A stretch of 64,000 nt of DNA from Aminivibrio pyruvatiphilus (GTDB lineage: Bacteria; Synergistota; Synergistia; Synergistales; Aminobacteriaceae), in the NCBI RefSeq assembly GCF_004366815.1, contig NZ_SORI01000012.1, positions 1 through 64,000 on the forward strand, written 5' to 3'. The notes below the pieces were generated by a model that worked only from the letters and a program-made list of their open reading frames with translations, had not been told where the DNA came from and did not search any database. Shown one piece after another: positions 1-37,876 of this stretch (its first letter is position 1; the number at the start of each line of letters is the position of its first letter). A program made the position numbers and the translations under genes.

Positions 1-68
1 GCGAAGGATGTTATGCCGCTTTCACCGCTCTTCAGTTCGATATGGATTTTCTTCGCCTTTTCCGTCAT
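1..68 (-). CDS. 5' end of an unidentified gene, cut by the window
   Basis: ATG at 68 reading leftwards gives 22 codons beginning MTEKAKKIHIEL before the window ends. A GAGGTG ribosome binding site lies about nine bases upstream. The visible residues are Lys-rich and hydrophilic with no signal peptide. Too little is present to name it. It is divergent from the DAK2-DegV gene. Confidence 0.55.
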   Translation of the reverse strand, partial: MTEKAKKIHIELKSGESGITSF

Positions 69-77
69 AATGAACGC

Positions 78-148
78 ACCTCTCTGGTGAAGGGTCGTGT
101 CGTCGCAAACACTACCTTAACACTGTTCTCCGAACAGTCCAGAGAGGT
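78..148. promoter_or_regulatory. Long-range leader helix covering a ribosome binding site
   Basis: ACCTCTCTGG (78-87) and CCAGAGAGGT (139-148) are perfect inverted repeats. They enclose a second hairpin, CTGTTC-TCC-GAACAG (123-137). Read on the minus strand, the first arm contains the GAGAGGTG ribosome binding site of the gene starting at 68, so the helix would hide it. Read on the plus strand, the helix is followed by a run of Ts (148-158) and looks like a terminator. Sequence alone does not decide between the two. Confidence 0.45.
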
Positions 149-189
149 TTTTTATTTTTCAGGGTGCGGATTTAGGATGTCACTTCGGG

Positions 190-356: not shown

Positions 357-2141
357 ATGAAAGTTCGACGTATCGACGGAGAGAGATTCCGGAACGCCTT
401 CCTGGCGGGAACCGCCGCTCTTGAGCGGCGGAGGGAGCATCTCAACAGGATCAACGTTTTTCCGGTCCCGGACGGGGATACGGGAGACAATATGGTGTTC
501 ACCTGCAGGTCCATCGCGGAGCATACGCATCCCTCCAGGTCACTCGCCGAGACGGCGGCCTCCATGGCGGAGGCCGCATTTTCCGGGGCCCGGGGCAATT
601 CGGGGATCATCTTCTGCCAGTTCATCCACGGACTCGCCAGGGCGTTCGAGCCCTATCCGAGGGCGGACGCGCCAGTGTTCGCCGAGAGCCTCCTCGCGGC
701 GGTTCCCTTCGCGGAGGAAGCCCTGCACAGGCCCGTCGAGGGAACCATCCTGACGGTCATGAGGGACTGGGCCCACGCCGTCCGGCGGATCAGCGAAAAG
801 GAAAGGGATTTCGCCGTTCTGCTTCCCCTGTCGCTGGAAGCGGCCAGACGTTCCCTGAGCGAGACTCCGGAAAAAATGGAGCTGCTGGCCCGGGAGCATG
901 TGGTGGATGCGGGCGCCCAGGGGTTCGTGGACTTCCTCGAGGGTGTGGCTGACTTTGTGGAGAAGGGAAATCCGAGGCAGTTCCCGGGAAGCTCCGCTTC
1001 GGCCGTTCCCCCCCGGGACGGGGAGCACGTCCACGAGGATGAAATGCCCTCCTTCCGCTACTGCACGGAGGCAGTCCTCCACGGGGAGGGGATTTCCCGC
1101 CCGGAGCTCATCGACATTCTCTCCCGGCACGGTGACTCGGTGGTGGCCGGAGGCGGCGGGGGGAAGTTCAGGGTTCATGTCCACACAGACCACCCCGCCG
1201 GGGTGATGGGCCGCCTCTCGCGAATGGGGAGACTGAGCTTCCAGAAGGTGGACGACATGCGGAGGCAGGTGGAGGCGCGGAATCACCCCCTGTCGTCCGT
1301 GGCGCTGCTGACCGATTCCTGCTGCGACCTGCCCCAGGAGTTCCTGGACAGGTACCAGGTACACACCGTCCCCCTCACCATATCTTCCGGGGGGTGCGAA
1401 TACCTGGACAGGCTGACCCTGAAGCCCGCGGAGATCTATTCGGACCTCAGGGAGACGAAAAGAACGTTCAGCACATCCCAGCCCGCCTTCGGCGAATTCG
1501 TGAAGCGGTACTCCTTTCTGAAATCCTGCTATGACAGCGTCATTTCCATTCATCTCTCGTCCGCCCTCAGCGGAACCTGGAGCGTGAGCCGGAAGGCCGC
1601 CGACCACGTGGGCGGCGAGGGAATCCATGTTCTTGACAGCAAAAATCTGTCCGGCGCCCTCGGCCTCCTGGTGCTGAAGGCCGCCGAAGCAGCCGCTGCA
1701 GGGAAGAGTGCCGGGGAGATACTGGAGATCGTCGGTCAGGCCATTCCCCGGACGAGGATCTTCGCGGGGCTGAACTCCCTCCGCTACCTTGTGCGGGGAG
1801 GACGGGCGGGGGCCATGGCGGGCTTCGTGGGGACCATGCTGAATCTCTTCCCCATGATCACCGTGGACCCGGAAGGGAAGGCGTCCGGCTTCGGCAGGCC
1901 CGGCAGCGAGCGGGCCAACCGGAGGAAGATGCTGGACGAGTTCAAAAGGCTGACCGGCAGCCATGGTTTGTGGAAATACGCGGTTCTCCACGCCGAAGCC
2001 CCCGGCGCGGCGGAAGAGCTGGCGGCCGCCCTGGAAGAAGCCTGCGGCAGGGCTCCTGAATACACCATGGAGATCTCGCCGGTGATCGGAATCAATACGG
2101 GACCGGGGTCGGCCGGGTTCGCCGTGATCCTGGAAAACTGA
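357..2141 (+). CDS. DAK2-DegV fusion protein (fatty-acid kinase-like)
   Basis: The 594-residue protein joins a DAK2-type nucleotide-binding domain (about residues 5-200) to a DegV lipid-binding domain (from about residue 315, VALLTDSCCDLP). Residues 33-46 carry NVFPVPDGDTGDNM, the Mg-ATP signature of DhaL/FakA kinases. In Firmicutes FakA and FakB are separate and phosphorylate exogenous fatty acids; here kinase and acyl-carrier modules are in one chain, so a self-contained acyl-phosphate enzyme is a reasonable inference. ATG 357 lacks a well-placed ribosome site; GGAGG at 335-339 is better spaced for an in-frame TTG at 351, which would add two residues. A FadL-type porin follows 82 bases later, consistent with lipid uptake. 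Confidence 0.85.
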   Translation: MKVRRIDGERFRNAFLAGTAALERRREHLNRINVFPVPDGDTGDNMVFTCRSIAEHTHPSRSLAETAASMAEAAFSGARGNSGIIFCQFIHGLARAFEPYPRADAPVFAESLLAAVPFAEEALHRPVEGTILTVMRDWAHAVRRISEKERDFAVLLPLSLEAARRSLSETPEKMELLAREHVVDAGAQGFVDFLEGVADFVEKGNPRQFPGSSASAVPPRDGEHVHEDEMPSFRYCTEAVLHGEGISRPELIDILSRHGDSVVAGGGGGKFRVHVHTDHPAGVMGRLSRMGRLSFQKVDDMRRQVEARNHPLSSVALLTDSCCDLPQEFLDRYQVHTVPLTISSGGCEYLDRLTLKPAEIYSDLRETKRTFSTSQPAFGEFVKRYSFLKSCYDSVISIHLSSALSGTWSVSRKAADHVGGEGIHVLDSKNLSGALGLLVLKAAEAAAAGKSAGEILEIVGQAIPRTRIFAGLNSLRYLVRGGRAGAMAGFVGTMLNLFPMITVDPEGKASGFGRPGSERANRRKMLDEFKRLTGSHGLWKYAVLHAEAPGAAEELAAALEEACGRAPEYTMEISPVIGINTGPGSAGFAVILEN

Positions 2142-11920: not shown

Positions 11921-11943
11921 GAGAGGGAAGGCGGAAGCGATGT

Positions 11944-12108
11944 CCTAAATCCGCAGCTTCTCCTGGCAGAGGGAGTGTCGCCGGGCACAGCGTCCGGGCC
12001 GAGAAACCGACATGGATGTCGGTTTCAGGTGCAGTTGTCAAGGATGACAATCTGCACCGGCGGCCCAAGCGAGCACCGGTGACGCTCCCCGCTGCCTGCG
12101 GATTTAGG
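11944..12108 (+). repeat. Branched-fold dispersed element, copy 1
   Basis: A 165-base unit closed by CCTAAATCCGCA and TGCGGATTTAGG. Inside are GGCAG/CTGCC, then a 14-base-pair helix GGGAGTGTCGCCGG/CCGGTGACGCTCCC with two G-U pairs. GGGCCG/CGGCCC follows, enclosing two hairpins: GAAACCGACA-TGGA-TGTCGGTTTC, and GGTGCAGTTGTCA paired to TGACAATCTGCACC with one bulged base. The wobble pairs favour the plus strand as the RNA. No open reading frame is supported. It lies between hicB and the adenine deaminase gene, upstream of that gene's likely promoter. Confidence 0.8.
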
Positions 12109-12142
12109 GATGCCTTCCGGTAACAAGGGATGCCTTCCGGTA
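12107..12142 (+). repeat. Short tandem direct repeat
   Basis: GGGATGCCTTCCGGTA occurs at 12107-12122 and again at 12127-12142, immediately after the branched element. Both copies are on one side, so they are not target-site duplications. Confidence 0.7.
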
Positions 12143-15868: not shown

Positions 15869-15895
15869 AGAATCTCCTCCTGCAGGGGAATCATG

Positions 15896-16059
15896 CTAAA
15901 ATCCGCCGGCAGCGGGGAGCGTCACCGGTGCTCGCTTGGGCCGCCGGTGCAGATTGTCGTCCATGACAACTGCACCTGAAACCGACATCCCTGTCGGTTT
16001 CCCGGCCCGGGCGCTGTGCCCGGCGATACTCCCTCTGCCTGAAAAAAAGCGGATTTGGG
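15896..16059 (-). repeat. Branched-fold dispersed element, copy 2
   Basis: Reverse-oriented copy of the element at 11944, with all helices recognisable: AAATCCGC/GCGGATTT, GGCAG/CTGCC, GGGCCG/CGGCCC, GAAACCGACA/TGTCGGTTTC and the GGTGCAG/CTGCACC hairpin. The long helix has one A-C mismatch. It lies only 27 bases before the Fur-family start codon, in the sense orientation of that gene, so it would form most of its mRNA leader. Confidence 0.8.
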
Positions 16060-16073
16060 TCATGGTTTTCCTC

Positions 16074-19689: not shown

Positions 19690-19728
19690 AGGTTCCCCGC
19701 TGCCAGGAAAAGCTGCGGATTTGGGCCG
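19690..19728 (-). repeat. Truncated relic of the branched element
   Basis: The segment around TGCCAGGAAAAGCTGCGGAT is the reverse complement of the 5' arm of copy 3 (32198). The neighbouring TTCCCCGCTGCC resembles the 3' arm. The central hairpins are missing. Confidence 0.6.
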
Positions 19729-32183: not shown

Positions 32184-32197
32184 CCCCAGGCCGGAGA

Positions 32198-32409
32198 CCT
32201 AAATCCGCAGCTTTTCCTGGCAGAGGGAGTGTCGCCGGGCATAAGGTGAATTCGCCCCCCAGGGGCGAAGAGATGATCCCCTGGGGGACAGCGCCCGGGC
32301 CGAGAAACCGACAAGGATGTCGGTTTCAGGTGCAGTTGTCAAGGACGACAATCTGCACCGACGGCCCAAGCGAGCACCGGTGACGCTCCCCGCTGCCTGC
32401 GGATTTAGG
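32198..32409 (+). repeat. Branched-fold dispersed element, copy 3 with insertion
   Basis: Same closing arms and helices as copy 1 (11944), but 212 bases long. The extra bases (about 32242-32290) sit in the internal loop between the 14-pair helix and GGGCCG. They form their own hairpins, TTCGCCCC-CC-AGGGGCGAA and TCCCCTGGGGGA. All outer helices are kept. It lies between the M20 promoter and the lyase gene. Confidence 0.8.
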
Positions 32410-32445
32410 GGAGATTTCCGGACTCCCCGGCTAATTGTCAGCTTC

Positions 32446-37654: not shown

Positions 37655-37673
37655 AAAAATGCGGATCTCGCCA

Positions 37674-37823
37674 TCTTCTTCCATCCTGACTTGGCGGACG
37701 ACTCGCTCCGTCCGCTTCACAGTCGGCTCCGGAATCGCACCGGATCAGCCTTTCGGCTCGCGGGCTGCGGACCTGGAGGCCCTTCACCGCCGGTGGGGAA
37801 TTCCACCCCGCCCCGAAGATTTC
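37674..37823 (-). promoter_or_regulatory. FMN riboswitch (RFN element)
   Basis: The minus strand carries the RFN core in order: GGGGCGGGGTGGAATTCCCC, ACCGGCGGT, GCCCGCGAGC, GATCCGGTGCGATTCCGGAG, CCGAC and GGATGGAAGAAGA. It controls ribU. Confidence 0.95.
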
Positions 37824-37876
37824 GGGGATATGATACTCCATTTCCGCCGTCAGTGCCAGAGAGGGAAATGTTTTTG

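Follow-up and report, generated by a model that had tools for sequence, protein, structure and literature searches.

A mobile IS1380-type MITE in Aminivibrio pyruvatiphilus with a conserved TwoAYGGAY RNA core that is a probable target of CsrA

Introduction

Three complete copies of a dispersed sequence with a branched, RNA-like fold are present in the 64,000 nucleotides of Aminivibrio pyruvatiphilus DNA analysed here (the window). Is this sequence a mobile DNA element whose palindromic interior matters only to the DNA, or is it an RNA that the cell has reason to keep? A sequence-only reading of the window had proposed an undescribed-looking element that might be a structured MITE moved in trans or a regulatory or small RNA. 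We examined the anatomy of the element, the pattern of substitutions in its copies, its likeness to known RNA families and its distribution in relation to CsrA.

Results

A family of dispersed copies

The three copies were found at the positions given by the sequence-only reading (Table 1), and the parts that it had described were all present: the closing arms CCTAAATCCGCA/TGCGGATTTAGG, a GGCAG/CTGCC step, a GGGCCG/CGGCCC helix, two apical hairpins and a helix of 14 pairs, two of them G-U (U40.G149 and G44.U144 in alignment A1). The 64-kb window contains the sequence ACANGGATGT at three places, one in each element. The copies are real, but they are not alone, as blastn matched 49 places in the same genome. 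These places correspond to about 28 copies, counting intact and eroded elements, together with fragments, and many further copies are present in two congeners (G001 and G002). A single copy was found in G074, a genome of the same family that has CsrA; its ends are eroded and one GGA loop is altered.

Table 1. Coordinates of the element copies, their parts and the related IS end in the window
Feature	Position	Strand	Details
IS1380-family IS, 5' end	1..176	-	same TIR as the element, at 165-176; transposase begins near 68; runs off the contig
Copy 1, left target duplication	11939..11943		GATGT
Copy 1, complete 165-bp MITE with TwoAYGGAY RNA core	11944..12108	+	159.9 bits with our own model R1
Copy 1, left terminal inverted repeat	11944..11955	+	CCTAAATCCGCA
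Copy 1, RNA core	11965..12096	+	GGCAG...CTGCC, 132 nt
Copy 1, first apical loop and closing pairs	12010..12019	+	ACATGGATGT; GGA at 12014-12016
Copy 1, second GGA	12042..12044	+	apical loop AAGGAT
Copy 1, right terminal inverted repeat	12097..12108	-	
Copy 2, complete	15896..16059	-	5-bp duplications TCATG at 15891-15895 and 16060-16064
Copy 2, second GGA	15960-15962	-	
Copy 2, first CsrA-like loop	15985..15994	-	ACAGGGATGT
Remnant of one element end	19696..19725	-	
Copy 3, with additional hairpin module	32198..32409	+	duplications GGAGA at 32193-32197 and 32410-32414
Copy 3, extra 47-nt hairpin module	32242..32288	+	TAAGGTGAATTCGCC...CCCCTGGGGGA; limits to a few bases
Copy 3, first CsrA-like loop	32311..32320	+	ACAAGGATGT
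Copy 3, second GGA	32343-32345		

The copies vary in their modules, with a 165-bp base type and a 212-bp type that carries an extra hairpin. In a few copies a third insert separates the apical hairpins. Copies without the apical hairpins also occur: both GGA hairpins are missing from L023, L024, L026, L027 and L032, and the two main ones from L025. In L025 (1105-1550; C1:179372-179817 of the same genome) the extra hairpin module forms a tandem series of about seven, most of the modules having GGA in their loop region, and the whole looks like a growing hairpin array. We make no claim that the extra module provides additional GGA sites, since a GGA in its loop is present in L025 and L096 and absent from most copies.

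All the copies that were checked are intergenic, as judged with a simple gene caller. In genome G000 the element lies between divergent genes in 11 cases and between convergent genes in 2. Relative to co-directional neighbours, 8 copies are in the sense and 4 in the antisense orientation, with no significant bias toward downstream genes. At locus L002, an element copy adjoins a predicted methionine adenosyltransferase gene, and a SAM riboswitch (RF00162, 90.6 bits) lies nearby, at 1793-1893 (+). The window itself also holds an FMN riboswitch (RF00050, 93.7 bits) at 37669-37824 (-).

The element has the anatomy of an IS1380-type MITE

Perfect 5-bp target duplications flank 33 of the 41 copies with two ends, as compared with 0-3 matches at any other length. 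For copy 1 the right duplication is GATGC (12109-12113), which matches the left one at four of five bases. An empty site for copy L027 was found in the sister genome G001 (L098), and the flanks overlap there by exactly 5 bp. The 12-bp terminal inverted repeats (TIRs) of the element are common to it and to an IS1380-family IS. A complete IS of this kind in G002, flanked by the duplication CGGTC, has the TIRs of the element with one mismatch at one end and two single-base variants at the other. Its transposase matched PF13701 above the cut-off (63.8 bits) and scored 174 bits with NF033539 (NCBIfam IS1380), slightly below the cut-off of 180, with a query that was cut at the locus end. A search of the A. 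pyruvatiphilus assembly with PF13701 gave no match, which is explained by the collapse of the IS at many contig ends. Similar ends of the CCTA type, with duplications of 5 bp, are known from ISEcp1 and other IS1380 elements.

The TIRs, the target duplications, the empty site and the matching IS1380 element agree with the earlier proposal of a structured MITE, and we regard it as virtually certain that the element is a MITE of IS1380; judging from the shared ends, it would be moved in trans by the IS1380 transposase. The MITE is like the IS1380-family IS in transposase family, in its CCTAAATCC-type ends and in the 5-bp target duplication, but the sequence common to the two is limited to the ends and amounts to about 20 nt at one side. 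The sequence-only reading had named a match to a known MITE or REP family with DNA-level terminal repeats and a transposase as evidence against its proposal. Such repeats and a transposase were found, and the RNA is not thereby removed; the element is both a MITE and an RNA.

Like other bacterial MITEs and REPINs, for example the QMITEs of Coxiella, the element is short and gene-free, with TIRs, target duplications and a partner transposase elsewhere; QMITEs give rise to sRNAs (PMC10969869). Unlike in these elements, the interior is a conserved RNA of a protein-binding type that outlasts the ends, and it is not an IS remnant. A REP or REPIN in the strict sense, with a RAYT Y1 HUH transposase and no target duplication, is ruled out by the 5-bp duplications and the DDE transposase partner. 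Spread by plasmids or phages was also rejected, as blastn of both collections gave no match. Two rearranged loci were seen in the congeners: L086 (1501-1932, G003) is an IS1380 copy with an internal deletion, and L106 (304-1116, G002) combines IS ends with MITE pieces in a nested or composite layout.

The RNA core matches TwoAYGGAY

That the element looked undescribed proved half right, as its RNA core scores high enough to reach the gathering cut-off (43 bits) of TwoAYGGAY (RF01731), a family already described in Rfam. Scores across the copies were between 41 and 45 bits (43.5 for L005, 43.4 for L016 and 45.2 for L017); in the window, copy 2 scored 43.1 bits at 15943-16002 and copy 1 scored 42.9 bits, just below the cut-off of 43.0. 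An undescribed RNA family is ruled out by these matches. TwoAYGGAY appears in PMC2864571 as a probable RNA of gammaproteobacteria, Clostridiales and the human gut, and motif matches led to the proposal that it is a CsrA-binding sRNA (PMC4333381). The family (Weinberg et al. 2010) and the element both have two apical A-Y-GGA-Y-like hairpin loops on a long common stem. They differ in that the N in the ANGGA of the element is any base, and in that most element copies have TIRs and target duplications; we found no description of TwoAYGGAY as transposon cargo in the literature.

The fold is highly stable, with a z score of about -10.5 and none of 200 shuffled sequences as stable. Both strands fold about equally (-106 vs -102 and -106 vs -108 kcal/mol), and the G-U pairs are thus ruled out as proof of the RNA strand. 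The loops, however, distinguish the strands: among 40 elements, 67 GGA loops were found on the sense strand and 2 on the antisense strand. Since folding is alike on both, it is the loops that set the RNA strand.

The core is conserved while the ends decay

The sequence-only reading had taken the G-U pairs as a sign of selection on RNA. Selection is supported, not through these pairs but through the GGA loops, compensatory changes and the cores of old copies. In an alignment of 29 copies, 27 of them distinct, pairing is kept in 94% of the alignment cells, and double changes were found in 17 pairs, 7 of which are in the core. Over the whole structure there are 34 double-change cells versus 10.6 in shuffles, counts that overstate independence because the copies are related. 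Both apical GGA loops are present in 29 of the 29 aligned copies. Among the 27 distinct copies, none of 162 GGA cells had changed, as compared with 58 of 756 cells in the rest of the unpaired core (p = 2e-5; the kinship of the copies inflates such counts too). At the N between A and GGA all four bases are used, in nearly equal numbers in loop 1.

Seven copies are without recognizable TIRs (L015-L019, L097 and L100). In these, 14-19 of the 24 TIR positions differ, which is near random, and 11-17 of the 133 core positions differ, so that the similarity of the core to the consensus is still 87-92%. In copies with partial erosion, 41 of 216 TIR cells have changed, versus 50 of 1197 core cells (p = 2e-12). 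The orthologues L013 and L077 differ by a single change in the core, and by 11% in their flanks (p = 8e-6). Kinship of the copies and gene conversion weaken both p-values. Retention is not absolute, as L032 has lost its hairpins beside its sister-genome orthologue L099, which retains them. Gene conversion could also keep cores alike, and is suggested by L014 and L103, which occupy an identical insertion site in two sister genomes and differ in subfamily and module content. For the TIR-less copies, erosion of old insertions fits better than descent from a non-mobile ancestor, because TIR decay is intermediate in L077, L103, L007 and L008; for some of the copies such an ancestor may still apply. 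We conclude that the core is very probably a functional RNA.

An unrelated MITE in a second genus has the same loops

In genus g30, the RF01731 matches sit in elements of about 245 bp with the TIR GGGNAYCTCTAAAAAC, which is unrelated to the IS1380-type TIRs. These elements were found through RF01731 and gave no match with model R1. Duplications of 4 bp, such as TTAA and ATAA, flank several copies, and G119 has an IS with g30-type ends, flanked by the duplication TTAC, whose transposase belongs to the IS5 family (NF033581, 281 bits). In G121, we collected 20 copies by TIR spacing alone; as they were not selected through the RNA model, they form an independent test. All 20 carry both hairpins, and 39 of the 40 loops have GGA, in the form CAGGACG, the remaining loop having GAA. 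CAGGACG matches the repeat CAGGA(U/A/C)G of E. coli CsrB (PMC7652899). Changed cells amount to 0.4% in the loops, 8.3% in the other unpaired interior positions and 8.9% in the ends (p = 1e-7), the loops changing about 20 times less than the other unpaired bases.

These results bear on an alternative reading, that of a selfish palindromic MITE and nothing else. The stem-loop would then be a DNA feature, serving transposase recognition, forming a cruciform or merely reflecting its mode of origin, and the GGA loops would be a family relic without a cellular role. The TIRs, the target duplications and the empty site are in line with this possibility, as are the equal folding of both strands and the fact that copies without GGA hairpins have moved too, L023, L024 and L026 having perfect duplications. 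It is nevertheless unlikely, given that GGA is unchanged while the adjacent N is saturated, that erosion is 4-5 times faster in the TIRs than in the core, that the same pair of GGA loops is found, unchanged, in an unrelated MITE of another genus, and that the core matches an Rfam family and co-occurs with CsrA, as described below.

CsrA is the probable ligand

A. pyruvatiphilus has one CsrA, which adjoins FliW and in which residues L4 and R44, named as RNA-contact residues (PMC7652899), are present. Loops of the A-N-GGA-N type are typical of RsmE/CsrA complexes, and two CsrA sites can be bridged at a distance of 10-63 nt (PMC7652899). The element has two A-N-GGA-N hairpin loops, and the two GGA motifs of copy 1 are 25 nt apart, within this range. 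In addition, loop 1, as in ACATGGATGT of copy 1, is identical to the CsrA SELEX core ACANGGAUGU (consensus from PMC7652899), a string that each of the three elements contributes once to the window. The stems of the element exceed those of most SELEX ligands in length, and hairpins of very high stability may be weaker CsrA binders (PMC7652899).

RF01731 matches were found in 11 of 188 Synergistota genomes. CsrA is present in all 11, versus 119 of the 188 overall (p = 0.005); counted by genus, the association is not significant (4/4 vs 38/63, p = 0.12). In the congeners G003 and G004 the IS is present and both CsrA and the element are absent, which is suggestive only, as these genomes are fragmented. 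The element resembles the CsrA sponges CsrB/CsrC and RsmX/Y/Z in having several GGA hairpin loops, but unlike these sRNAs it has two sites per copy, is dispersed in dozens of copies and is mobile. A consensus scan, which is weak evidence, found neither a promoter nor a terminator of its own at copy 1, and an independent sRNA gene of the CsrB/RsmZ type is on this basis not supported. Taken together, the loops, their spacing and the CsrA residues point to CsrA as the probable ligand of the predicted RNA.

Instead of CsrA, the RNA could bind a different ligand or protein, such as some further RNA-binding protein that recognizes GGA loops. TwoAYGGAY is without a proven ligand (PMC2864571, PMC4333381), and the loops by themselves name no protein. 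However, hexaloops of the form A-N-GGA-N are a hallmark of CsrA, as are the exact SELEX core and, in the g30 elements, the exact CsrB repeat, and CsrA occurs in every genome that bears the RNA; we consider a different ligand quite improbable. A bidirectional terminator or a REP-like stabilizer of mRNA 3' ends, acting at the DNA or transcript level, would suit the strong stem and the intergenic position of the checked copies, but is very improbable, as there is no T-run after the stem, the preference for divergent over convergent genes in G000 is the opposite of that expected of a terminator, and GGA is left unexplained.

Discussion

We think it fairly probable that the MITE, cut and pasted by the IS1380 transposase, spreads TwoAYGGAY-type CsrA sites that are kept by the host. 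As its anatomy suggests, an IS1380-family transposase would act in trans on the 12-bp ends. The cargo RNA would present its two A-N-GGA-N loops, 25 nt apart, on the long stem, and one CsrA dimer may hold both. Because no promoter or terminator of its own was found and the checked copies are intergenic, the element is presumably transcribed within neighboring transcripts, from the promoters of its neighbors. In cis, an insertion might place a neighboring gene under CsrA control; in trans, dozens of copies might draw CsrA off other mRNAs. Control in cis, titration of CsrA or both could apply, and we hold any particular mode of action only tentatively. After insertion, the substitution patterns suggest, the DNA ends would decay and the RNA core would stay, as expected if the host retains the RNA rather than the mobility.

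It is possible, though we would not call it probable, that CsrA-binding RNAs of the Synergistota have spread independently as cargo of at least two unrelated MITE families, one of the IS1380 type and one, in g30, of the IS5 type. If so, stripped RNA copies remain, and transposition builds and repeatedly rebuilds the set of CsrA targets or the sponge pool of the cell. Transposition would then be a possible route by which a post-transcriptional regulator gains dozens of sites at once. At the time when TwoAYGGAY was put forward as a candidate in other bacteria, CsrA-sequestering sRNAs were known from gammaproteobacteria alone (PMC4333381), and the elements described here provide a concrete set of candidates in a phylum that has both CsrA and FliW. 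They also call for some caution, in that an RNA family defined through comparative genomics can turn out to be cargo of transposons and yet consist of functional RNAs. Our literature search found no paper that ties CsrA-binding RNAs to MITEs; the parts are of known kinds and, as far as we found, their union appears to be new.

Further RF01731 matches were seen in the phylum. Genus g25 has another two-hairpin element that matches the family (L116 and L123, at G041:C2:75716 and 77697, and L117 in G058); the two copies in G041 are 2 kb apart and in opposite orientation. The best RF01731 match of the phylum, with 64.9 bits (51.7 bits with R1), is L107 1507-1637 (-) (G169:C98). It is the sole match in G169, a genome that is 55% complete, and is preceded by a strong terminator-like hairpin. 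L107 may be a non-mobile form.
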